In this document: piece by piece, positions 15,033-56,278 of the stretch
Numbering within the stretch: position 1 is the stretch's first letter
How the letters are laid out: each line of letters starts with the position of its first letter
IMG/VR virus record: IMGVR_UViG_3300003323_000592
Span: 1-56,278 of that record
Source: a virus
Length of the DNA stretch: 56,278 nucleotides
Direction: 5' to 3' (one strand)
Position numbers and translations under genes: made by a program
The notes under the pieces: model-generated
Told to the model about the DNA's origin: nothing
Seen by the model: only the letters and a program-made list of their open reading frames with translations
Databases searched by the model: none

Positions 15033-17699
15033 TTACAATAGTTCTTCGGCGATTACTGGTTTACTGACTGGTCGTTTCCATCCGTTGTTTCGGAGATTAT
15101 CGATGAGGACTTTGGCCTCCTTGGCGGGCAGCTCGGCCGCGTTCGCGTAGCCCGCTCGTTTGAGCACGTCGGCCTGACGTGGTGTGGCCTTTCGGTCCTT
15201 CAGGCGCTTGCATAGCTCGACAAAGAGCTGCTTGGCTTGCGTGTAGGGATACTGAGAAGCGTTGATGCCGAAGCGAGCCATCAGGTTCACCTGCGACTCG
15301 GACAGTTTCTTTCCCATGTCGAACGGCTTGGGCTTGGTGGGAACCAGGTCGAGCGCATCGAAGGGGTTGATCTCGATCTTGGTGTACTTCGAGCGGGCCA
15401 CCAGCTTCACGCGCCGGGCCTCGGCCTCGCGCTTGGTGCGCTCGATGCGTTTGCGAATCTCCTCCTCCGATTCTTCCAGCACCTCCATGACATCCATCGC
15501 CTCGCCCTTCTTCTCCATTTTCTTCTTCGCGAGTTTCAGGGCGCGGTCGCTGACCTTACCGCCAAGAATGTCAGCCACGGTGATTAGCTTGTGGTTGCCG
15601 GAGTTACCCACGAAGTCGAGCACGGTGCAGCTCGGTTTCTCGGACTGGGCGATGAGTTTGCAGCGCGAACCTGAGTCCACGCAGTCGTTGAGCAGTCGTG
15701 CGATGGAGTCGGCGGGACGCAGGCCACGGCCGGCGAACTGGGTGTAGAGACTCCGGCTTTTTGTAGCGCGGCCCATGATGAGCAGCTCCACGGCGGGGTT
15801 ATCAAATCCCTCGCCGCAGATGCCGACATTGACCAGCACCTGCAACGCACCAGATTTGAAGTCCTTGAGGATAACCTTCCGCTCTTCGCGCGAAACTTTG
15901 TCCCAGATGGCCGTGGACATGCCGCTGACCACCCGGTTCAGAACCTCCGAGAAACGCTGGGCCTGCTTGATGCTCGTGCAGAACACGAGCGTCCGGCGTG
16001 GCTTGCCTTTCCGGCGCAGCACCTGCCCCCAGTCCTCGACTGGGGCGAAGTCCAGATACCGGTCAGGTAAACTCCACGAGGCTTCCAGGGTGGGCTGAAT
16101 CATGCGTTGAACCGTCTCTTCTTCTTCGAGCACGGCTGAGAGTTGTCCGAGGTTGAGATCCCCGGCGGTGGTGGAGATGTGGGAGTAGTCAAGCCCTTCC
16201 ACCGGGACGTAGTGCTGTTTGATGGGGACGAGCCAGCCTTCGCCGATGCCCGCCAGAATGTCCATCTTGTAGGCTGTTGTCTGGAACAGCTGCTTGAGAG
16301 CTTCTTCGTCAGATCGGTCAGGGGTGGCGGTGAACCCCACAACCTTGAGTCGAGGATTTTGCTGAAAGTAGCGGACCACCTTGAGGTAGGAGGGAGCGAC
16401 CCAGTGATGGCAGTTATGGACGAGCACGCCATCAGCGAAGTAATTGTGGTTGTCCTCTACTTCAATATTGTAGACAAAACCATCTGGACACAGCCCTCCA
16501 AATTTTCCATCACTTCCTGGTTCGAGAAACGTAACACTTTCCACCCTATCGACTGTAAAAAATCGACCTTCTTGCTGTCCTGTTGCCTCCTGGTCGCCGC
16601 AGAATGTGAACGACCATCTATTTCCACCCCGATCTTTAATTGAGGATGGCCAACATCCAGCTTGTAGCAGGTTGGATAACCCGAATCTCTCGGCATACTC
16701 GTTTTCACCACGACATTGGTGCTCCAAGATAACGCGGCGGCAAGTGCCGCCTCGGTGCTTGTTGGACCTTTCCCATTTCCACCCCGAGAAATAGGCTGGT
16801 GGCCAATCCGTCGTAGCGTGGCGGCCATCTTCTTGCGAGTGATCGGTTGGAACATAGGGTTGCGGTAGGTCATCCTCTGGGATGCGTATTTTCGATTTGT
16901 TCTCGCCATAGTCGATGACGACTCCCTTGATCGCATTGCGCGCGCGCAGGAGTGGGAACAGAACAGCCTCTTTCCAGACGAGACTCGAAAGCGTTCGTAT
17001 TTTGTCTTTGGTGTGACGACTCCTCCACATTCGCAGCATTTCAGGCTCATTAGTGATGAGTCTAAACACCACTGAGTTGCTTGTCAATGCGTGAGCGGGA
17101 ACGTAACCACCAACTCCGATACTGAATATCGGATGGCTGTTGGTAGTGACCATCGTGTGCCCCGAGGCAAACGCCACCCTCACCATACAGTGAGGCTTTG
17201 ATTTGAAGGTGGCGACGACCTTCTTAGGCTCGATGGTTTTTCCCATTGACCTCACCGTGTCTCCTTTTTTGAGCTGTTCGATTGGAATGCCGTCCACCAG
17301 CGTCCCCGCAGGAAAGCACTCGTCAAGGAACATATAATCGAAGTCTGTCGGCCTAAAGTTCGCCATGCGTCCATCCCCACCATTGCCTGAGTATTGGGTT
17401 TGAACGGTGCCGATCACAACTTGCTCTTTCGAGAAAACACCGTAATCAGCTTTGAGGTCTGCCATCTCAATCCCAACCTTAACGCCGGCGTTCTGCTCAA
17501 TCGTGTCCCTTGCCTGGTAAACTAGGGTGTCTCGATGGCATAAAAAAAGGCACCGGCTAGGCTGCACCCTACGTATCAGCTCGGCGGTGATACGGGTCTT
17601 GCCAAGCCCGGTCGCTAGCACATTGATTGTCGACATGACCCCTTTGTCAAACTCGGCCAGTGTTGCTGCCACGCAGTCGTCCTGATAAGGGCGAATCAC
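15033..17699 (-). CDS. DEAD/H-box helicase (SF2) interrupted by an intein
   Basis: The 888-residue precursor carries a 302-residue intein (residues 128-429). Splicing would give a helicase of about 586 residues. Seen: Q-motif-like start, Walker A with GLGKT (31-35), FLDE (124-127) joined after splicing to CHHW (430-433) to rebuild the DECH box, GFTATP motif III, and FAGRGLRP motif VI. This is the restriction-type/UvsW-like SF2 group, likely replication or branch-migration work. Translation is coupled to the upstream gene (ATGA at 17696-17699). Because the intein splits motif II, activity must depend on splicing. Confidence 0.88.
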   Translation of the reverse strand: MIRPYQDDCVAATLAEFDKGVMSTINVLATGLGKTRITAELIRRVQPSRCLFLCHRDTLVYQARDTIEQNAGVKVGIEMADLKADYGVFSKEQVVIGTVQTQYSGNGGDGRMANFRPTDFDYMFLDECFPAGTLVDGIPIEQLKKGDTVRSMGKTIEPKKVVATFKSKPHCMVRVAFASGHTMVTTNSHPIFSIGVGGYVPAHALTSNSVVFRLITNEPEMLRMWRSRHTKDKIRTLSSLVWKEAVLFPLLRARNAIKGVVIDYGENKSKIRIPEDDLPQPYVPTDHSQEDGRHATTDWPPAYFSGWKWERSNKHRGGTCRRVILEHQCRGENEYAERFGLSNLLQAGCWPSSIKDRGGNRWSFTFCGDQEATGQQEGRFFTVDRVESVTFLEPGSDGKFGGLCPDGFVYNIEVEDNHNYFADGVLVHNCHHWVAPSYLKVVRYFQQNPRLKVVGFTATPDRSDEEALKQLFQTTAYKMDILAGIGEGWLVPIKQHYVPVEGLDYSHISTTAGDLNLGQLSAVLEEEETVQRMIQPTLEASWSLPDRYLDFAPVEDWGQVLRRKGKPRRTLVFCTSIKQAQRFSEVLNRVVSGMSTAIWDKVSREERKVILKDFKSGALQVLVNVGICGEGFDNPAVELLIMGRATKSRSLYTQFAGRGLRPADSIARLLNDCVDSGSRCKLIAQSEKPSCTVLDFVGNSGNHKLITVADILGGKVSDRALKLAKKKMEKKGEAMDVMEVLEESEEEIRKRIERTKREAEARRVKLVARSKYTKIEINPFDALDLVPTKPKPFDMGKKLSESQVNLMARFGINASQYPYTQAKQLFVELCKRLKDRKATPRQADVLKRAGYANAAELPAKEAKVLIDNLRNNGWKRPVSKPVIAEELL
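16413..17318 (-). mobile_element. Intein in the helicase DECH box
   Basis: 302 residues. It starts C-F-P-A-G-T-L-V (Cys1 codon 17316-17318) with block B HTMVTTNSHP about 50 residues later. It ends in a typical C-terminal block ending NHNYFADGVLVHN, with Asn at 16413-16415 followed by Cys+1. All splice-junction residues look intact. The middle (about residues 217-380 of the precursor) has no LAGLIDADG or other in-frame endonuclease motif. The same DNA encodes an endonuclease in another frame (16457-17050). Confidence 0.9.
16457..17050 (-). CDS. Vsr-like (EDxHD) homing endonuclease encoded out of frame inside the intein
   Basis: 197 residues, reading one base off the helicase/intein frame. Seen: a treble-clef zinc finger (C5/C8 and C31/C35), a NUMOD-like segment NPMFQPITRKKM...GHQPISRGGNG (64-93), then a nuclease core with E100, D132 (YKLDV), VEIDGRSH (142-149) and D158, ending LQSIGWKVLRFSNQEV. 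These match the EDxHD family related to Vsr and to I-Bth0305I. It occupies exactly the slot between intein splicing blocks B and F, where in-frame endonucleases normally sit, and its last codons overlap block F. No clear Shine-Dalgarno precedes the ATG at 17050. Real coding is supported by preserved motifs over the full length. Confidence 0.85.
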   Translation of the reverse strand: MSLKCCECGGVVTPKTKYERFRVSSGKRLFCSHSCARAMRSRESSSTMARTNRKYASQRMTYRNPMFQPITRKKMAATLRRIGHQPISRGGNGKGPTSTEAALAAALSWSTNVVVKTSMPRDSGYPTCYKLDVGHPQLKIGVEIDGRSHSAATRRQQDSKKVDFLQSIGWKVLRFSNQEVMENLEGCVQMVLSTILK

Positions 17700-21379: not shown

Positions 21380-22567
21380 TTATTCTGCTGACTCCTTCGT
21401 CCAGCCGTAGTGAACGCCCGCGGCGTCCAGCATCCGGCGAAACTCCTCATCCTTGGCGATCGACTCAGCTTTCTTTGGCTGGCCGTTGTACTCGCGCTCG
21501 ACCTCGTAGTTCATCACGAGGCCGTAGAGGTAGTTCTTCTCCAGCTCGGCGAGCGGGATGTCCTTGTTGCGACCCCACGGCATCAGATACTTCCGCCATG
21601 GCTCTTCTTCCCCAGCTGGCGGCTGCGTGACGAACGCCTCGACTTGAGCAAAGAGGTCGTCGGCTGCCTTTTTAGTGGTCGGAACGTATTTCAACGGCAG
21701 GTCGGCAAGTTTTGCCTCTGGCGTGTTGGGTATCCACCCCTTCGACTGGAAGAATCGCAGGGCATAATCGGCATTGGTGCCCGGGAACAGGGCGATGAAC
21801 CGATTTCGCTGGTCCTCGGTGGCCTCCTGAGGGAGAACCTGACTCGCTGTAGCGGCCTGCCGCGTTGCGGGCTGGGGGCTAGGCCGTGCCGCAGGAGGGG
21901 GAGCGCTGCTCTGGGACCCTCCAAACGCTCCACGGGGCGGCTGGGAGCCTCTTGGACCTCGGTTACGCTCCTTCCACCCCTCACACCATCCCTTCATCCA
22001 AGCCTGCAATCCGACCCCAAACTCCTTGCAGCACCGCCTGAATGCATTCGATTTGGCTGATTCCAAGGCGTCCGAGTAGTTGGATTTAGCGTTATCGGGG
22101 TAATAAACCGCGTCCCCAATGGCCTCACCTACCACACAGCCACGGGCAATAAGGACCACGTCGGCGTAAACTTTCACGGCCTTTTTCTCCCGGTTGTCCT
22201 TCCAGTAGGTAAATTCTTCCGCCCACTCGCGTCGGCGGATGGGGACAACCGCCCCCACACCCAGCACTTTGTTCAAGCGCTGCCGTAGGTATGCGTGCTC
22301 GATGTAAATCAACTCGTTGTCACCGCCAGCGCCTTGCCGGAATGCTTCGTCGGGGAAGTCCTCGGACAGGGCGTTGGCCTCTTCGGGTGTCAGGTTGAGT
22401 TTGGAAGCGTTGGCGTAAGCCGCACTCAGCGCGTCTGCCACCGCCTCAACCCGTGCTTGGGCTGGCGTGATGGGTTGCTGCTGTTGCTGTGCTTCTCGCA
22501 AGCGTTCGTCATTGACTGCTGGAACGGTTATTTCCGCTCCTGGGATCTGGTCATCTGGTTCATTCAT
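21380..22567 (-). CDS. Rad52-like single-strand annealing protein
   Basis: 395 residues. Residues about 85-185 carry the Rad52/22 signature: YIEHAYLRQRLNKVLG, then YADVVLIARG with GEAIGDAVY, then SAKSNAFRRCCKEFGVG. A Pro/Gln-rich low-complexity linker and a C-terminal domain (about 285-390, PWGRNKDIPLAELEKNYL) follow. That last part resembles the small domain that often follows phage nucleases and annealing proteins. Role: annealing of complementary single strands in recombination or replication. Its start overlaps the upstream nuclease stop by 4 nt. The RecB-like gene nearby is the likely exonuclease partner. Confidence 0.75.
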   Translation of the reverse strand: MNEPDDQIPGAEITVPAVNDERLREAQQQQQPITPAQARVEAVADALSAAYANASKLNLTPEEANALSEDFPDEAFRQGAGGDNELIYIEHAYLRQRLNKVLGVGAVVPIRRREWAEEFTYWKDNREKKAVKVYADVVLIARGCVVGEAIGDAVYYPDNAKSNYSDALESAKSNAFRRCCKEFGVGLQAWMKGWCEGWKERNRGPRGSQPPRGAFGGSQSSAPPPAARPSPQPATRQAATASQVLPQEATEDQRNRFIALFPGTNADYALRFFQSKGWIPNTPEAKLADLPLKYVPTTKKAADDLFAQVEAFVTQPPAGEEEPWRKYLMPWGRNKDIPLAELEKNYLYGLVMNYEVEREYNGQPKKAESIAKDEEFRRMLDAAGVHYGWTKESAE

Positions 22568-23016
22568 ATTGTTGGTCGATATTCAATCTCACCGTCCACA
22601 AACACGAGCGCCAGCAAATCGTAGGCGTCTGGGTCGTGCGGGGCAAAGACGGCTTCCCCTTTTCTGGTTCGGGTGGCGGTTGTCACCTCCACTCGAAGAA
22701 ATGTCTGCTGCTGCACTGGAAGAAGAACGTTGGGCATCATCACGATCAGGTCGCACGAACACGACTGAGAGACTGAACGAAACACGCTGTATCCACGGTT
22801 CATCAAGTCCGCGCACACCAACAGTTCGTTGATGGCGCCGCGGACTCCTGTGGAGACGGCAGGACCAACCTTCACGATTGGCTTGTAGCCATTTTTCGCG
22901 AATCGCTTTCTACATTCGACCGAGCAGAACTTTTTATTTTTCCGTTCGTGCCGGTCCATCTTGGTGCCGCAGCCCTCACAGGAGCGCTGAAACACGCCAT
23001 CAACGACCGCACTCAT
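22564..23016 (-). CDS. Zinc-finger PD-(D/E)XK-like nuclease (possible free-standing homing endonuclease)
   Basis: 150 residues from the ATG at 23016, which overlaps the upstream stop. A treble-clef finger (SCEGCG ... FCSVEC, C13/C16/C31/C35) is followed by a nuclease-like fold: E64 in GAINELLVCADLMNRG, D89 in SCSCDLIVMM and E110 in LRVEVTTATR. The usual Lys of E-x-K is replaced by Thr, so the enzyme could be inactive or use another residue. The finger is close to those of the endonucleases at 16457 and 34681, suggesting a shared module. Confidence 0.65.
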   Translation of the reverse strand: MSAVVDGVFQRSCEGCGTKMDRHERKNKKFCSVECRKRFAKNGYKPIVKVGPAVSTGVRGAINELLVCADLMNRGYSVFRSVSQSCSCDLIVMMPNVLLPVQQQTFLRVEVTTATRTRKGEAVFAPHDPDAYDLLALVFVDGEIEYRPTI

Positions 23017-23333
23017 TCTGCTAATCCTTTTTCTTCGGGGTTCTCGGGACGCTGGCGGTCGATAACGCGTTTGAAATGGGCGCGGCACTCGTCGCCGGCC
23101 TTGATGACTGCTTTGATGGCCTCACCGCACTGCGGATCTCCACACTCGCACGGCAAGGTTGAGGCTTCCTTAATCAGCTCCCACTGCTCGTCGGGGATGT
23201 TGCCCACCATGTTGACAAACACGGCGGACAAAATCACCTGCGCTTCCTGCGGGTGCATGTTCGTAAACGCTGCCGCCAGAAAGCCGCCGATGTGCGGCAG
23301 GCCTTCGGGTCCTTGCATCATTTCAATGTTCAC
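23013..23333 (-). CDS. Hypothetical protein with a CECGDPQCG cluster
   Basis: 106 residues, started by GTG at 23333, which overlaps the upstream TGA (GTGA). Helical, with a Cys pair near the middle (PCECGDPQCGEAI). The N-terminal part is rich in Met/Gly. No family recognised. It is translated with the nuclease gene it overlaps. Confidence 0.6.
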   Translation of the reverse strand: MNIEMMQGPEGLPHIGGFLAAAFTNMHPQEAQVILSAVFVNMVGNIPDEQWELIKEASTLPCECGDPQCGEAIKAVIKAGDECRAHFKRVIDRQRPENPEEKGLAE

Positions 23334-23694: not shown

Positions 23695-24888
23695 TTAGAT
23701 ACCTAATCTCCAGGCCTCCCATTGCAGGTCATCATCGATTCCACCAACGGGGCCCCTTCCATCGGCCTCTTTTCTTTTTCCGCCCTCGTTGGTTTCGGAT
23801 TTTGGGAAGGTGTGGTTCTCCTTCTCCCCACCCTTGCTTTTGTCCTCTTTCTCCTTCTGCTGCTGGAGCGCTTCTTCGACCATCGCCTTCTCCAAGTCTG
23901 GCACGCATTGACGCTCCAGATCGTCCGGGTCGACCTTGTGATGACGACAAGCCATGCAGATGATGTAAGGAGCGAAGTCCACCAGCGCCATCTCACTGAG
24001 CGCATTGCTCAAGTCATCAAGTTCAACACCTTTGTCCACGCACTTGTAGATGATTTCCTTCCACGCAGCGTCGGTCCGCTTCCACAGCGGCTCGGTCTCG
24101 GCCGAGTACATCGACGGGCACTGATGCCCACCGGTCATGCCGCCCAAAGGAATCGATCCACTGGAGCCCGTGTAGGTGGTGACAGCCGGCTTGATCTCGA
24201 TGACGTTGTCCTTCCACTGCTGGGGGAAGCTCAACTCTGTCGGTGGAGTCGTGAGCAGCCGGCGGGCCTGCTTGTTCGCCCAATCGTTCGGCAGGTAGGG
24301 CCGGAACTTCTCGGGACACTCAGCGAGTATCGGGTCGGTATCAACGAACCACGCCATGTTGAGGTTCTCATCCTTGATGACTAGCCCCTTCCGGTAGAAC
24401 CGCGCGTGAATGTCGTATTTGTCCTTGTTGGACATGTGGCCAATGGTGATGTGCAGACCATCCTGATTCTGCTCGTTGGTCTCATCCGTGCCCGACTGGA
24501 AGGCACTGGCCGAGCAGTGGTGATGCACCGTGCCGAAGGCGAACCAATCGGGTGGCTGCAATCCCAGCTCCGCGTGCTGCTTGCGCTTCTCCTCGTTGTC
24601 GAGTTCATGAGCGGTCATGCCGGTCTTGGCCTCCTGCGGATAGGCGTAGGCCTTCCACGTCTGGAGGGTGGGACTGACATAGAGCCGCACCTGGCACTCG
24701 CTGCGATACTCGTTGTAGCACCACTGGAAGAAGGAAAGGACCTCGTTCCACACATCGAGCGGGATCTTCGGGCCCTTCCAATCTATCGTTGCCTTGGTGT
24801 TCTTGATCTCATACTTCATGGTGCAGTCGAATAGACCTGCAACGGAGGCGTCATCCTCGATGAAGCCCCCTTGTACTTTCAGTTTCAT
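23695..24888 (-). CDS. JAMM/MPN-type metalloprotease of the ubiquitin-like operon
   Basis: 397 residues. H122-x-H124 followed seven residues later by S132-x-x-D135 (HHHCSASAFQSGTD) is the JAMM zinc signature, and GLHITIG follows as in MPN folds. JAMM enzymes remove or mature ubiquitin-like proteins. The C-terminal 150 residues are helical and end in a Lys/Glu/Gly-rich tail. AAAGGACAG precedes the start. It is the last gene of a set with E1, E2-like and Ubl genes, so it likely processes the Ubl or cleaves its conjugates. The upstream active-site Glu is not certain by eye. Confidence 0.75.
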   Translation of the reverse strand: MKLKVQGGFIEDDASVAGLFDCTMKYEIKNTKATIDWKGPKIPLDVWNEVLSFFQWCYNEYRSECQVRLYVSPTLQTWKAYAYPQEAKTGMTAHELDNEEKRKQHAELGLQPPDWFAFGTVHHHCSASAFQSGTDETNEQNQDGLHITIGHMSNKDKYDIHARFYRKGLVIKDENLNMAWFVDTDPILAECPEKFRPYLPNDWANKQARRLLTTPPTELSFPQQWKDNVIEIKPAVTTYTGSSGSIPLGGMTGGHQCPSMYSAETEPLWKRTDAAWKEIIYKCVDKGVELDDLSNALSEMALVDFAPYIICMACRHHKVDPDDLERQCVPDLEKAMVEEALQQQKEKEDKSKGGEKENHTFPKSETNEGGKRKEADGRGPVGGIDDDLQWEAWRLGI

Positions 24889-24917
24889 TTTCTGTCCTTT
24901 TGTTTACTGGTTGATTC

Positions 24918-25772
24918 TTATCCGTTGGGGAATAACTCAGCGAAGAGGGCGGGGTCAGCCGTCCGCAAGGCATCCTTGAGCGCGGTCTTGCCCGCGTCCT
25001 GGATGGTGATTTCGCTGTCGGTGGTCTCGTCGAACTCGTGGTCGTCGTACTCGGCCGTTCCTTCCACGTCTCTCATGGTGAGGTAGTCGCTCGGAGAATC
25101 CTCATCTATTTTTGAGGCGATTAGGTCGAAGAACTCGTCTGAATCGCTCGCTTCCGAAGCAGCTTCGATGAGCGCCTCGCGACAGACACCCATCTGCCCT
25201 CGGCCCTCGCGCGTGTTGTGGTAGGAGCAGCGTCCATGCTCACGCTCGGAAGCTACAACCTCCACCATCACCTGAGTCCGTCGGCGCTCGGCCGCTGCTG
25301 CGTTCAGCCGCTCCTGCTCAGCCTGCTGACGTTCCATTTCCAGCTCCCAAGACGACTTCGGCTTGGGGGGAATCTCGCAGTTGTACTCGATCCAATTCTT
25401 CACCTTCTCAAAGGTGTCCTCCTCCCGCGGCACCGGCACCTTGAGGTGCGCGAGCAGCAGGTTGCGGATCGTTTCGTTATTGGGTGCTGACTTCACCAGG
25501 TCAATCACGCTGCGGGGCAGGAAGTCAGTGATGTTGCACTTCTTTTTCGGAGGCGATTTGACCTCGACGGTTTTCTTGGCTCCGTCGAGTTCGACCTCCA
25601 CTTTTTTGGTGGCCATATCAGTGCTCTCCTGCGCCTGCGAGGTTGGCGACGGCGGTGGGCTCGGCGGCGTTTCGGGTGCCGCTGCTCTCTCGCTCGAGTA
25701 TCGCTGGTCCTCCGTTAGTGTCGCTTCCTCCGGGTATGGATTTCGTGGAGGCAGCGGTATTTCCTGACTCAT
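24918..25772 (-). CDS. Ubl-operon accessory protein (possible PRTRC_E analogue)
   Basis: 284 residues from the ATG at 25772, supported by AAAGGACAG 4 nt upstream. The first 52 residues are Pro-rich and share DNA with the E1 C-terminus in another frame. An alternative start (25616, MATKKVEVEL) lies just after the E1 stop. A middle helical part contains Glu/Gln/Arg-rich coiled coil and a CSYHNTREG segment. The tail is very acidic. PRTRC clusters contain an extra protein between ThiF and JAB that I cannot match by sequence. Function unknown; probably a scaffold or target adaptor. Confidence 0.65.
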   Translation of the reverse strand: MSQEIPLPPRNPYPEEATLTEDQRYSSERAAAPETPPSPPPSPTSQAQESTDMATKKVEVELDGAKKTVEVKSPPKKKCNITDFLPRSVIDLVKSAPNNETIRNLLLAHLKVPVPREEDTFEKVKNWIEYNCEIPPKPKSSWELEMERQQAEQERLNAAAAERRRTQVMVEVVASEREHGRCSYHNTREGRGQMGVCREALIEAASEASDSDEFFDLIASKIDEDSPSDYLTMRDVEGTAEYDDHEFDETTDSEITIQDAGKTALKDALRTADPALFAELFPNG

Positions 25773-26466
25773 TGTTCTGTCCTTTCGTTTCTGGTTTCAG
25801 TTTGTCTTTGATGAGGTGTGTCTCCATCCGTGTCCGGTTCGCCACGAGGCGATAGGGCAGGCTGGGGATGATTTTGGCCTTCACCGTGGGCGCGTGCAGA
25901 TGCCACAGCGCGAAGAGGTGGCCGGCCAGTGACGCCGCCAGCGAATTGCTGGTGACGAGCTGCGGGTTCTCCTTCTGGGCTTCGCCCGTGCACCCGATGC
26001 CCCGCGCTCGCGGGTCACCGCTGGTGTCGGTCAGTATGTCCGGGAAGTAGGTTCTCGGGTCAACCGCGGTTGACTTCCACTCCGGCTGGTAGAAGTACGC
26101 CTCGGCTGAGTGCGTCTCATTCGCCGCGAAGATGGCCTTGCACTGCCACCGATCGCACTCGGACAGCGCCGCGCGGCGTGCCCGGTGGTTGTCGACGCAG
26201 ACGACCAGCCAGTCGTCCTCACCGAACTCAATGAGGCTTTCAGCGAACCACTCGTTGCGGAAGAGGCAGCCGTATTTCTCAGCCAATGCCTCAGCCTTCG
26301 AGCGGCCAATGTCCTCCGGCTTGAACAGCTGCCGGTCGAGATTCTTCTCTTCCAGCGTGTCCGCGTCGATGAGGGTGATTTGACCCGGTGACGTGAGGAG
26401 GGTGAGCGCCGGGGTGAGCCAGCTGCCGACACCTCCACACCCAATGATGTAAATGTTTGACTTCAT
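25618..26466 (-). CDS. ThiF/E1-like Ubl-activating enzyme
   Basis: 282 residues. Seen: GCGGVGS nucleotide-binding loop (9-15), D35 of LIDAD, NLDRQLF (42-48) with the Arg and Gln that bind ATP, DIGRSKA (52-58), a hydrophobic VVCVDN strand (88-93), and a likely thioester Cys at C159 in GIGCTGEA. This matches E1/ThiF proteins, including the PRTRC ThiF family. It would adenylate the C-terminus of the Ubl. The 16-bp palindrome encodes S-T-A-V-D (132-136) in a loop. The C-terminal tail (about 50 residues) is low complexity and overlaps the next gene. The start is coupled to the 114-residue gene (ATGA). Confidence 0.85.
   Translation of the reverse strand: MKSNIYIIGCGGVGSWLTPALTLLTSPGQITLIDADTLEEKNLDRQLFKPEDIGRSKAEALAEKYGCLFRNEWFAESLIEFGEDDWLVVCVDNHRARRAALSECDRWQCKAIFAANETHSAEAYFYQPEWKSTAVDPRTYFPDILTDTSGDPRARGIGCTGEAQKENPQLVTSNSLAASLAGHLFALWHLHAPTVKAKIIPSLPYRLVANRTRMETHLIKDKLKPETKGQNNESGNTAASTKSIPGGSDTNGGPAILERESSGTRNAAEPTAVANLAGAGEH
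26059..26074. repeat. 16-bp palindrome, copy 5
   Basis: Exact copy, read K-S-T-A-V-D-P inside a loop of the E1-like enzyme. Confidence 0.95.
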
Positions 26467-26807
26467 ATTCCCGTCAGCTTTCTCAACACCTGCACCATTT
26501 TGTTGGCGGGTGTCACTTTGGGTTGCGTTTTAGTGAGGATGAACTGCTGTGCCTGCCCGACGATGTTGTCGAACTCGCGCACGTCAATGCCAGCCGACCG
26601 GCAATCGTCCCGGAGGACCGAGTCGAACGCCAGCAGCAGGGCTACCGTGTAGTTCTGTCGGCTGTATTGGACCGCGCGAAGAGCAAACGAGTCTTTCGGG
26701 ATCGCACTCGCCGCCGACTTCATTTTTTCCTCCAGATACTCCTTCCAGTCGAAGCTCGGAGGACTATTGAGCAGCGCCTGGTATAGTTCAGGATTTGGTA
26801 GGCTCAT
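26463..26807 (-). CDS. Small helical protein between E2-like and E1 genes
   Basis: 114 residues, mostly helical, with no cysteine-rich or membrane segment. The middle (LRAVQYSRQNYTVALLLAFDS) forms an amphipathic helix. It overlaps both neighbours by 4 nt (ATGA), so it is translated with the E2-like and E1 genes. This suggests a subunit or adaptor of the conjugation machinery. No family recognised by eye. Confidence 0.7.
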   Translation of the reverse strand: MSLPNPELYQALLNSPPSFDWKEYLEEKMKSAASAIPKDSFALRAVQYSRQNYTVALLLAFDSVLRDDCRSAGIDVREFDNIVGQAQQFILTKTQPKVTPANKMVQVLRKLTGI

Positions 26808-27553
26808 ACCTGGCAGAATTTAAGGAGTGCGGTTGATACCTTGGTGCAAAGAGTAGTCCACGGCGCCAAGATGGGTTGAGTGTGGAACTTGTTGTCCACC
26901 GATTTGAAGCGAATGAATTTCCAGATGGTGTCGCCCTGATAGAAGAGGTCGGAGTTCCACGGTGCGGTGCGGAACTGATGGATGGCCTTCTGCACAGCTT
27001 CGAGCACCGTTGGCGATGTCGAGTTGTACTGGCCCATGCAGACCTGGCACGTCTCGTAGAGATTGCCGAGCGGCAGGCGCCACGCCACACCCCGGCCATC
27101 GAAGGCGTAGAGGTAGTGGTCATGGCACAACCATTGATCGCCGTTGCTGGACGGCCGGATGAGCAGGTGGAAGCGGATACGCATGGTGGCGTCCTGCTTG
27201 AGCATGGCGTCCGCGCGGTTCCATTCCATCTCCAGAATCGGCTCGCCCGAGTCCTTGTGGGCGAACGTCGGATAGAACTGGTCCTTGTAGCCGTCGTCCT
27301 CCTTGATGGCTTTGAACGTGGTGCGGAAGTTGATGGTTTCGAGCGGCACGGAGATGTGCAGCGTGCTGTCGCTCTGCTGGTGCACAACGTGAATCGGACC
27401 GTGTCCCGGCAACTCCATGAAGTTACGCGCGGTCGTGACGACGTTGGTGGTAAATGCCTTCTGCAAGGCATCGCCGGGCTCGATCTCGGAGCGTTCGAAA
27501 TGCTCCAGAAACACGCGCCCTTGCGTATCGATTACGAATCTTGATTCATTCAT
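26804..27553 (-). CDS. E2-like protein (PRTRC_B-like) of the ubiquitin-like operon
   Basis: 249 residues. The second half has LPLGNLYETCQVCMG (160-174), then about 20 residues later TAPWNSDLFYQGD (196-208). The pattern P-L-x-N-x-y-x-x-x-x-V-C-x-G with a following F-x-x-S/D segment is what I know from PRTRC_B proteins, which Iyer, Burroughs and Aravind described as E2-like. C172 is the best candidate for the thioester Cys. The N-terminal half is beta-rich. AAAGGACAG precedes the ATG at 27553. A terminator separates it from the Ubl gene. Confidence 0.65.
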   Translation of the reverse strand: MNESRFVIDTQGRVFLEHFERSEIEPGDALQKAFTTNVVTTARNFMELPGHGPIHVVHQQSDSTLHISVPLETINFRTTFKAIKEDDGYKDQFYPTFAHKDSGEPILEMEWNRADAMLKQDATMRIRFHLLIRPSSNGDQWLCHDHYLYAFDGRGVAWRLPLGNLYETCQVCMGQYNSTSPTVLEAVQKAIHQFRTAPWNSDLFYQGDTIWKFIRFKSVDNKFHTQPILAPWTTLCTKVSTALLKFCQV

Positions 27554-27578
27554 ATTCTGTCCTTTGGTCTAAACGATT

Positions 27579-27618
27579 AAAAAGCCCCAGCCCGAGCGCT
27601 GGTTACGCCGGGCTGGGG
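27579..27618 (-). terminator. Rho-independent terminator between the Ubl and E2-like genes
   Basis: On the minus strand, stem CCCCAGCCCG/CGGGCTGGGG (10 bp, 14-nt loop) is followed by CTTTTTAA. It lies 17 nt past the Ubl stop and 25 nt before the E2-like start, well placed to make Ubl mRNA far more abundant than the enzyme mRNAs. Confidence 0.9.
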
Positions 27619-27634
27619 TGAGTGTGGCTACGGA

Positions 27635-27877
27635 TTAAGCGTGGGCGAGTTCCGCCGTGGCCTTCTTGTTGGCCGCGGTTTCAATCACCACCACCGAACC
27701 GTTCGGGACCATGGCGTCGTCGGGCATGGTGATGCCGCCAATCATCAGATTGACGTTATCGCCGTAACCCAGCTGGTCGCGCAGGTCCTGGCTGTGCCGA
27801 ATGTCTTGGATACGAATCGGCGTGTCCTGCTCGAACGATTCAGAGTCAGGTCCGTAGACTACAGTACAACGAAACAT
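27635..27877 (-). CDS. Ubiquitin-like (beta-grasp) protein, PRTRC_C-like
   Basis: 80 residues. Beta-strand pattern FRCTVVYGP, a short helix DIRHSQDLRDQLGYG, then NVNLMIGGITMPDD and VPNGSVVVIETAANKK, the usual beta-grasp ending. In phages and PRTRC clusters, proteins of this size and pattern accompany ThiF and JAB genes. The C-terminus is K-K-A-T-A-E-L-A-H-A, not Gly-Gly, so it may need trimming, may use another terminal residue, or may act by non-covalent binding. AAAGGA lies upstream of the ATG, and a strong terminator follows. Confidence 0.75.
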   Translation of the reverse strand: MFRCTVVYGPDSESFEQDTPIRIQDIRHSQDLRDQLGYGDNVNLMIGGITMPDDAMVPNGSVVVIETAANKKATAELAHA

Positions 27878-38766: not shown

Positions 38767-39431
38767 CCATCGAACTAATCACCACGTTCTATCGCGAGGA
38801 GTTCCTCGCTCCACTGTTCATGCTCCACTATAGCCCTTGGGTTGATAAGATGACCTTCCTGACGAACAAGTTCCCGGGCGGTAAGTTCGACGACGAGTTG
38901 AAGCAGGGGTGGATTAACGAAGCCCTGCGTCTCTCTGTCGCCGACTGGGTGGTGCTGGTGGATATGGACGAGTTCGTGTTCCCGTTACCGTACGGAGCCA
39001 ACCCGCGCGTGGTGCTGGAGCAGGAGCGCGACATGGGGCACCGGATGATTTTCTCGCGCATGACCCGGATGTGGCGGCACAAGGATGATGCTGACATCGA
39101 CCGCATGAAGCCACCGGTCCCGCAGCGCCTGCACGGCATACCCGACCACTGCAAGCCGTGTCTCTTCGATCCCCAAGGAGTTCGAATGGGCGCGGGCAAT
39201 CACGACTACACATCTGACACTCCACGCGCTCATGGGAAGGAGTGGGGAGGAGCGCACTGGGCCAACGCCGACGCGTGTTTCTGGATTGACCGGGAGACGC
39301 GCGACCGAGGACCTCGCCTAAGCCAGCGCAACATCGAGCGCGGCCATGGAACCCACACTCTCCGCACCAAGGAGCAGATTTTGGCTGAATGCAAAGCCCA
39401 CGAAAACGACCCAATCATCATTGAACTATGA
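38763..39431 (+). CDS. Glycosyltransferase-2-like protein
   Basis: 222 residues. IELITTFYREEFLAPLF, then WVVLVDMDEFVFPL (metal-binding D-x-D-E type motif) and GNHDYTSDTPRAHG. This fits the Glyco_tranf_2_4 group of glycosyltransferase-like proteins. Part of the sugar cluster. Confidence 0.7.
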   Translation: MTIELITTFYREEFLAPLFMLHYSPWVDKMTFLTNKFPGGKFDDELKQGWINEALRLSVADWVVLVDMDEFVFPLPYGANPRVVLEQERDMGHRMIFSRMTRMWRHKDDADIDRMKPPVPQRLHGIPDHCKPCLFDPQGVRMGAGNHDYTSDTPRAHGKEWGGAHWANADACFWIDRETRDRGPRLSQRNIERGHGTHTLRTKEQILAECKAHENDPIIIEL

Positions 39432-40132
39432 ACCTGCCCATCGAAATCTATCTCGACACCAGCGACCTCAAGGAGATTACTCGGTACGCCGATAGCCATC
39501 TGGTGAAAGGCTTCACTACAAACCCTACGCTGATGCGCCGCGCGGGTGTCTCCGACTACGAGCTGTTCGCCCGCAGTGTTCTGGAAGTGGTGAGGGGAAA
39601 GCCAGTGTCCTTCGAGGTGGTGAGCGAGGAGCCCAAGGAAGTGATGCGCCAGGCATTGCTCATCCAGTCGTGGGGTCCAAACGTCAGCGTCAAGATCCCG
39701 ATGATGAACAGCCGGGGCCAGTGCAACTGTCCCATCATTTCCGAACTGATGAGTCTGAAGGTGCAGGTCAACGTGACTGCGATGATAAGCCTGCACCACG
39801 TCAGCTACGTGCTTGCCCACATCCCCCTTGGACCCGCCATCCTTTCCGTGTTCGCCGGCCGGTTGGCTGACACAGGACAATCTCCGCACTCCGCCATGCG
39901 GGAAGCCGCGTCCAAGTTGAGCTATCACCCGGGCAAGAAACTGCTCTGGGCGAGTGTCCGCGAACCGGTGAACATCAGCGAAGCCGCCCATGCTGGATGC
40001 CACATCATCACCGTGCCTCCGGCGATGCTGGAGAAGGCGATGAAGTGGTACGGGCGGGATGACGACCAGATTGCCGCCGAAACCTCCAAGCAGTTCATCG
40101 ACGACGCTGTTAGCGCAGGCTTGACGCTTTAA
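39428..40132 (+). CDS. talC: Transaldolase / fructose-6-phosphate aldolase-like (TalC)
   Basis: 234 residues. LDTSDLKEI (9-17), VKGFTTNPTLM (26-36), VSVKIPM with K89 as Schiff-base Lys (87-92) and QVNVTAMISL match the TalC/FSA family in order. Cyanophages carry talC to redirect pentose-phosphate flux to nucleotides. Here it follows sugar-transfer genes and may serve either purpose. Confidence 0.85.
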   Translation: MNLPIEIYLDTSDLKEITRYADSHLVKGFTTNPTLMRRAGVSDYELFARSVLEVVRGKPVSFEVVSEEPKEVMRQALLIQSWGPNVSVKIPMMNSRGQCNCPIISELMSLKVQVNVTAMISLHHVSYVLAHIPLGPAILSVFAGRLADTGQSPHSAMREAASKLSYHPGKKLLWASVREPVNISEAAHAGCHIITVPPAMLEKAMKWYGRDDDQIAAETSKQFIDDAVSAGLTL

Positions 40133-55238: not shown

Positions 55239-56278
55239 TCAGCTGTAGTTCAGCTCGTGACTCTTGCGAGCCTCACGCATCTTGCTGCGCGCGCCTTTGA
55301 GCCAGTCCTCGCGTGGAGGCAGCTCCACCTGCTTGCCAAGATTCTTGATGACAAAGCCGAGTCGTCGAGCCCCCTCAGTGCCGATGGCCACCGTGTCAGC
55401 CAAGTCTGGTGAGCGGCCGATCTTCAGCTTCATATCCGCCTTGGGCTCAACCTGAATCTTGTTCTTGCCGGCCATGCCCCATTCCCGTTGGCAGAACTCC
55501 ATCAGCACATCTTCCGTCATGCCTCGAAACTGGCCTGACTCCACCACGTTGCGCACCGAGTACCACATCTCCGTCACGTAGTTGAAGTAATACTCCTTGC
55601 ACGGCATCACAATCTGTTCACTCACCTGCTTCTCAGACGCGGGCCCTCCGCAGTCAATGGAGTTGGCAAAGGCCCAACCCATCCGGCCAAAGCAGGACAC
55701 GAGGCCTGTCCGCATACCAGAGTCGTAGAAGAATTTCTCAGGCGGGATGCCGGACTCAGCGCATCGGGCCTGCACAAAGGCGACGATTTGCTCCTCCGCT
55801 TCATCTTTGTTGTTCGCTTGGATAGGCACGATGTCGGTCCGTACCAGGTGCAGGATGGGACGGATCGGGCTCTTCGGCACAGCCTGGTTAAGCAGCACTT
55901 CCACCTCTCCCGAGTCAACCGCGGTTGACTCAATCTCGTCCCCAAACTCCAGCTCGGCGTACACACACCGGTCACCGCCCACGCCCTTGTACGCGGCATC
56001 CAAGCAGGCAATACGGGTACGGTTGGAATTGCGCCAGATCGGTTCCTCCATCGCCTTGTTCTTCACCGCCATGTTACGGGTCAGTACGCGTCGGCTGCCC
56101 TGACCGCGAGGCATCTTGCCTTCATCCATCATCGTCACCCAGATGGAGTCAGTGCCGTAGAACGCGACGTCACGATCAATGTCAGCCTGCGTGATGAGGG
56201 GGATGCCGAGTTTGCCATCAAGGTTGGGAGAATCGCTGCCGGGGAGCTGGATGCGGCGGGTTTTCCAAGTCTTGGTAC
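55239..56278 (-). CDS. terL: Terminase large subunit, C-terminal nuclease part
   Basis: Continues the ATPase half at 1-823 through the circular joint, in frame at 56264. Expected nuclease features: IACLDAAYKGVGGDRC (first Asp, strand 1), FFYDSGMRT (second acidic patch) and a late D in GRSPDLADTVAIG. These form the RNase H-like acidic triad of TerL. A palindrome copy at 55914 encodes S-T-A-V-D between strands. Together with the first part this makes 615 residues. Confidence 0.88.
   Translation of the reverse strand, partial: TKTWKTRRIQLPGSDSPNLDGKLGIPLITQADIDRDVAFYGTDSIWVTMMDEGKMPRGQGSRRVLTRNMAVKNKAMEEPIWRNSNRTRIACLDAAYKGVGGDRCVYAELEFGDEIESTAVDSGEVEVLLNQAVPKSPIRPILHLVRTDIVPIQANNKDEAEEQIVAFVQARCAESGIPPEKFFYDSGMRTGLVSCFGRMGWAFANSIDCGGPASEKQVSEQIVMPCKEYYFNYVTEMWYSVRNVVESGQFRGMTEDVLMEFCQREWGMAGKNKIQVEPKADMKLKIGRSPDLADTVAIGTEGARRLGFVIKNLGKQVELPPREDWLKGARSKMREARKSHELNYS
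55914..55929. repeat. 16-bp palindrome, copy 10
   Basis: Exact copy, read E-S-T-A-V-D-S in the terminase nuclease domain. Confidence 0.95.

Follow-up and report, generated by a model that had tools for sequence, protein, structure and literature searches.

In bacteria, an operon type designated 6d, which combines a ubiquitin-like protein (Ubl) with JAB, E1, E2, and alpha-helical proteins, was predicted in 2006 by Iyer, Burroughs and Aravind (PMC1779556). Ubl conjugation in bacteria is now studied mainly as an anti-phage weapon. Here, we describe phages that themselves carry such a set in full. The DNA analyzed is the whole of IMG/VR virus record IMGVR_UViG_3300003323_000592 (positions 1 to 56,278; hereafter the window). 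At 23695-27877, six minus-strand open reading frames encode, in order, a Ubl, an E2-like protein, a 114-amino-acid protein, an E1, a protein rich in acidic residues, and a protease of the JAMM type, with the places and order given in a first-pass annotation made from the sequence by a model. The presence of the Ubl/E2/E1/JAMM gene set is confirmed by the sequence comparisons below. We think it likely that, with this operon, a tailed phage encodes its own self-contained pathway for reversible Ubl conjugation, on the basis of homology of the parts, the predicted Ubl fold, conserved catalytic residues, the conserved gene set, and purifying selection. The operon type itself had already been predicted; the new point is a family of Ubls in which alanine would be the residue that is activated.

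Direct family searches (Pfam, NCBIfam, PHROGs, and PADLOC) clearly recognized the E1 alone. This 282-residue ThiF-type protein (25618..26466, minus strand) matches Pfam ThiF at 8.6e-18, and its profile matches UBA2 and UBA3 in the PDB. The adenylation motifs are intact (GCGGVGS at residues 9-15 and NLDRQ at 42-46) and, like the candidate catalytic Cys159, are as first annotated; the cysteine is present in 65 of the 65 aligned rows that reach that position. The window Ubl, E2, 114-residue, acidic, and JAMM proteins had no credible match in Pfam, PHROGs, or PADLOC, which we attribute to divergence of the proteins rather than to absence of the families. The JAMM metalloprotease (397 residues; 23695..24888, minus strand) carries the HxH-x7-SxxD pattern noted earlier (H122, H124, S132, and D135), and its motif is complete, including an upstream Glu64 that had gone unmentioned. 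The four motif residues are invariant in 74 relatives, and E64 is found in 72 of them, with gaps in the other two.

The remaining core proteins can be placed with family profiles, from which the window was left out before its own proteins were scored. Scored in this way, the E1 (E=2.6e-47), JAMM (3.7e-30), E2 (4.8e-5), and Ubl (1e-6) all match, and shuffled window E1, JAMM, and E2 proteins (500 each) gave zero matches to the same profiles. Chance motif matches are thus rejected as an explanation. The genes are also under purifying selection: relative to the two nearest relatives (loci L077 and L078), the ratio of nonsynonymous to synonymous polymorphism (pN/pS) is below 1 in all six genes. It is lowest in the E1 core (0.18-0.22), is 0.29-0.45 in the Ubl, is higher in the 114-residue protein (0.64-0.70), and is highest where the E1 and acidic genes overlap (0.66-0.91).

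In the E2-like protein (249 residues; 26804..27553, minus strand), the candidate catalytic Cys172 lies within VCMG, as claimed from the outset. N164, C172, and G174 are invariant in all 48 aligned family members, and the spacing from Asn164 to Cys172 is eight residues. The same Asn-Cys spacing is seen in the HPN...Cys motif of eukaryotic E2s. Comparison by hhalign of the window-group E2 family with PRTRC_B/Prok-E2_D gave a probability of 95.9% (E=5.7e-9), compared with at most 0.3% for unrelated families, and the E2 of relative L059 matches Pfam Prok-E2_D at 2.1e-4, just under the cut-off. The assignment as an E2 of the Prok-E2_D/PRTRC_B kind is therefore supported at the level of sequence, with the fold unconfirmed (see below).

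The Ubl (27635..27877, minus strand) has 80 residues and, as first reported, ends in AELAHA with no Gly-Gly. The first-pass annotation had made its case depend on a beta-grasp fold for this protein. Such a fold is predicted by AlphaFold2 (mean predicted local distance difference test score, pLDDT, 84.3), and the top 50 Foldseek matches to the model among solved structures are all ubiquitin-fold proteins (ubiquitin, SUMO, NEDD8, and other Ubl domains), the best being the Bacteroides fragilis ubiquitin BfUbb (2.7e-4). When the family profile was compared with PDB sequences, ubiquitins came first (0.0017), and MoaD, Mth1743, and SAMP2 were among those that matched less strongly.

The odd end of the window protein can be read in the light of its family. 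One Lys is invariant in all 54 distinct Ubl sequences, and the residue after it is Ala in 48, Gly in four, and Asn and Gln in one each (19 Ala, four Gly, one Asn, and one Gln when the sequences are grouped into 25 clusters at 70% identity). In 42 of the 54, mostly ending ...QASSKA, the protein stops at the post-Lys residue, the stop codon following immediately. The others carry a tail of one to seven residues past this point, and the tails vary even between close relatives: TAELAHA in the window, TVELALA in L077, ELACA in L078, VRELVMA in L080, and a single A in L079. A family-wide invariant Lys followed by Ala and then by a variable tail explains the window end, and a variable tail behind Lys-Ala fits a precursor that is trimmed by the JAMM protease. 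The mature end of the window Ubl is thus probably Lys72-Ala73, with TAELAHA a 7-residue tail removed by trimming. On the E1 tree, the Ala state requires five changes, compared with a shuffled mean of 17, so that it is clustered, yet does not form a single clean clade.

Most relatives are metagenomic contigs, with genes called mechanically. Single-sequence scans of viral contigs with the E1, E2, or JAMM protein found no relative, whereas alignment-based scans did: 64 viral contigs were retrieved with aligned phage JAMM proteins and 75 with aligned window-group E1 proteins. The E1 scans led to 75 loci that were examined (74 viral and one from a bacterial metagenome-assembled genome). All four core genes (Ubl, E2, E1, and JAMM) occur together in 59 of these loci, every one of them viral, and several of the loci that are not complete are cut by contig ends. 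A scan of bacteria and archaea, with one genome for every species (84,980 in all), matched one contig; because it used one strict peptide pattern, the window group is best described as mostly viral, but not provably only viral. In the E1 phylogeny, L077 and L078 form a group with the window (97/99). A nucleotide search with the operon region found no match among named phages. Through the E1, related sets were recognized in Burkholderia phage BgVeeders33, Salmonella phage Arash, Vibrio phages D69, D148, and D181, a crAss-like phage, and PRTRC plasmids. The kinship with PRTRC that had been suggested initially stands, but the picture of a plasmid-type set strayed into one phage does not, given at least 59 other uncultured viral contigs and another group of phages, some of them named isolates. 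We found no paper on phage-encoded E1/E2/Ubl sets in the literature within scope (which excluded subscription papers and preprints), and claim no priority.

The further phage group comprises Salmonella phage Arash (L008), Vibrio phage D69 (L009), and contigs L010-L027, and its Ubl mostly ends in GTKG. Some members encode a polyUbl with a GTKG-type end, either as three tandem Ubl repeats (phage D69, L009 1388-2179) or as a 368-residue repeat protein (L025 3276-4379). In Arash, the E2 and E1 homologs (L008 1519-2274 and 3499-4539) are annotated as "structural protein"; if this annotation rests on virion proteomics, the two enzymes may be packaged in the virion. In the crAss-like phage cr85_1 (L006 1933-6289), a Ubl-like gene (core end TTNKNIKSG), a JAMM gene, and a ThiF-type E1 gene lie beside primase and uracil-DNA glycosylase genes.

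In the pathway that we propose for the window operon, JAMM would first trim the 7-residue tail from the Ubl, exposing ...Asn-Lys-Lys-Ala. The E1, to judge from its conserved residues, would adenylate the trimmed end and hold the Ubl as a thioester on Cys159, from which it would pass to Cys172 of the E2 for attachment to a target, and JAMM could later remove it again. As a low-confidence first guess, the target is a phage replication or recombination protein, or else a host factor that acts on the DNA of the phage. The guess comes from the genes that the operon adjoins: in the window, a gene for an Mgm101-type annealing protein; in relatives, genes for an Hjc/VRR-NUC nuclease and for DNA polymerase A; and in the crAss-like phage, genes for a primase, a uracil-DNA glycosylase, and nucleases. 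The same chemistry might instead serve to counter host defenses or to modify virion proteins, a job we would put at about one chance in three, given that bacterial Ubl-based defenses confront phages (PMC10097602; PMC13373217) and that the Arash E1 and E2 homologs bear a structural label; set against this are the DNA-metabolism neighbors in the window and its relatives, and no defense-system gene was recognized within the operon itself.

How the Ubl is activated is a separate matter, and we hold the balance to be level on whether the modifier of this phage lineage is activated and conjugated by way of a C-terminal Ala (Lys-Ala, JAMM-trimmed in some members), serving the phage and breaking the glycine rule. 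Several points weigh against the interpretation offered here. We know of no precedent for conjugation through an Ala end. Profile comparison of the window-family Ubl with the Gly-ended phage/PRTRC_C Ubl family gave a probability of 0.8%, with nothing shared beyond the C-terminal motif; common descent is consequently not proposed, and the Gly-to-Ala statement relies on variation within the window's own family. The neighborhood argument for the target is weak. Finally, when the model of the full-length E2 (pLDDT 84.6) was compared with solved structures, it matched no E2. Its match among predicted viral structures was one uncharacterized phage protein (8.3e-10). PDB sequence searches with the E2, JAMM, and PRTRC_B profiles returned nothing meaningful. 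The E2-like match on which the first-pass annotation had also staked its case was obtained as a family-profile match to PRTRC_B/Prok-E2_D, but the model has no solved E2 neighbor, and the assignment relies on the family relationship plus the active-site pattern.

It is also conceivable, if rather improbable, that the mature end is not at Lys-Ala, or that the Ubl is used without activation through this end. The conjugated Ubls known to us end in Gly, and the best fold match, BfUbb, is a ubiquitin that occurs naturally in bacteria and ends in Cys; however, such a view has to accommodate a Lys retained in 54 of 54 sequences, Ala or Gly next to it in 52, a stop right there in 42, and invariant E1 and E2 cysteines. 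A sulfur-carrier system, in which the ThiF-type E1 loads a ThiS/MoaD-like Ubl that JAMM has a part in maturing, while the E2-like protein has another job, would account for the E1 type and for the weaker MoaD, Mth1743, and SAMP2 matches, but is very improbable given that every complete set includes an E2-like partner with the invariant Asn..Cys, that no sulfurtransferase gene was recognized in the operon, and that sulfur carriers end in Gly-Gly.

Activation through Ala, if true, would be an exception to the rule of a glycine end in conjugated ubiquitin-like modifiers, and the compact phage enzymes would make a simple system for learning what E1, E2, and JAMM require at the Ubl end. Because the family has natural Gly-ended members, the question of Ala versus Gly is open to comparison of relatives. 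The initial suggestion of a novel end chemistry or a trimming step is supported as a lead: Lys-Ala is a family trait and the tail is variable, so both may apply.

The two accessory proteins hold their positions among relatives, without a match to known domains. The gene for the 114-residue protein (26463..26807, minus strand), which has no Pfam match, overlaps those of the E2 and the E1 by 4 bases at each joint. It has phmmer matches in L077 (1.4e-12) and L078 (7.4e-11), and a similar-sized gene lies between E2 and E1 in L059, L066, L070, and others. The acidic, charged protein was placed correctly on its strand by the first annotation, but its mechanically called open reading frame is listed at 284 residues (reaching 25772); the start is very probably the ATG at 25616, which follows an AGGAG directly behind the E1 stop, giving a protein of probably 232 residues (24918..25616, minus strand). 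Its homologs occupy the same position in L077-L081, and it has no Pfam, PHROG, or NCBIfam match.

The window is probably a complete, circularly assembled phage genome, given a 15-base direct terminal repeat (TCCAAGTCTTGGTAC, at 1-15 and 56264-56278) and the size of the contigs of the five closest relatives (56.0-57.8 kb). The description of the phage as lytic-looking stays conjectural; the genome shows the terminal repeat, weak tail-protein matches, and the Mgm101-type annealing gene. The latter (21380-22567, minus strand; 1.8e-12) lies 1.1 kb downstream of the JAMM gene, near a zinc-finger/PD-(D/E)XK-like gene (22564-23088). Elsewhere, a helicase open reading frame (ResIII + Helicase_C; 15033-17699, minus strand) carries an intein-splicing signature (residues 407-429) where its two helicase halves meet, and is a probable intein bearer judging from that signature. 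A transaldolase gene (39428-40132, plus strand; phrog_440, 3.6e-30) is a phage auxiliary metabolic gene of known type.

Among described systems, three can be set aside. Phage tail-assembly TAPI/TAPK is a Ubl + JAB pair, and the phage cases in the consulted part of PMC1779556 are such pairs, with an NlpC/P60 domain and no E1 or E2 described there; identity is rejected, as the window operon has both enzymes and adjoins DNA-metabolism genes. Type II CBASS (cyclic oligonucleotide-based antiphage signaling system) Cap2 requires a fused E2-E1, whereas the window genes are separate, and PADLOC E1-E2 models match the E1 part alone, so this too is rejected. The Bil system (BilABCD) resembles the operon in having separate Ubl, E2, JAB/JAMM, and E1 genes and a JAB that trims the Ubl, but it is a bacterial defense system with a CEHH motif in BilB and two Ubl domains in BilA (PMC11354881). 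The window Ubl is a single 80-residue domain, and identity with Bil is rejected on that ground.

PRTRC sets, found on plasmids (e.g., Cupriavidus, L002) and in phage BgVeeders33 (L005), share a Ubl-like C, E2-like B, and JAB A protein and a ThiF-type E1. PRTRC_ThiF is the best NCBIfam model for the window E1, at 52.1 bits (below its cut-off of 144.75), and PRTRC_A matches the window JAMM weakly, at 15 bits (cut-off, 101.8). No ParB-, E-, or F-type PRTRC gene was recognized in the window operon, and the C-type Ubl has a GAKG or GTKG end plus tail, unlike the window Lys-Ala. The Gly-ended phage group likewise brings together a Ubl or polyUbl, E2, JAMM, and E1 in phages. It differs in its GTKG end, its separate place on the E1 tree, and its gene order (Ubl, a protein of ~200-320 residues, a small protein, E2, JAMM, E1).

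Type 6d shares with the window separate small Ubl, E1, E2, and JAB/JAMM genes accompanied by helper proteins (PMC1779556, as for the features below). E1 and JAMM lie in one operon in the window, with complete motifs, as in type 6d, in which the JAB gene is adjacent to that of the E1 and the JAB protein has an N-terminal alpha+beta domain bearing a conserved Arg and Trp; and the E2 belongs to family D by hhalign (E 5.7e-9), its fold unconfirmed. Type 6d includes an alpha-helical protein (alpha-hel2); the window operon includes the 114-residue protein, without Pfam match. The type 6d E2 has a conserved His downstream from the Cys that the window protein lacks, the corresponding region reading N-x-D-L in most phage members and T-H-P-N in the PRTRC type. 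In type 6d, the Ubl ends in a Gly that is highly conserved, in contrast to Lys-Ala plus a tail in the window, where the genes also stand in another order and the set is carried by phages.

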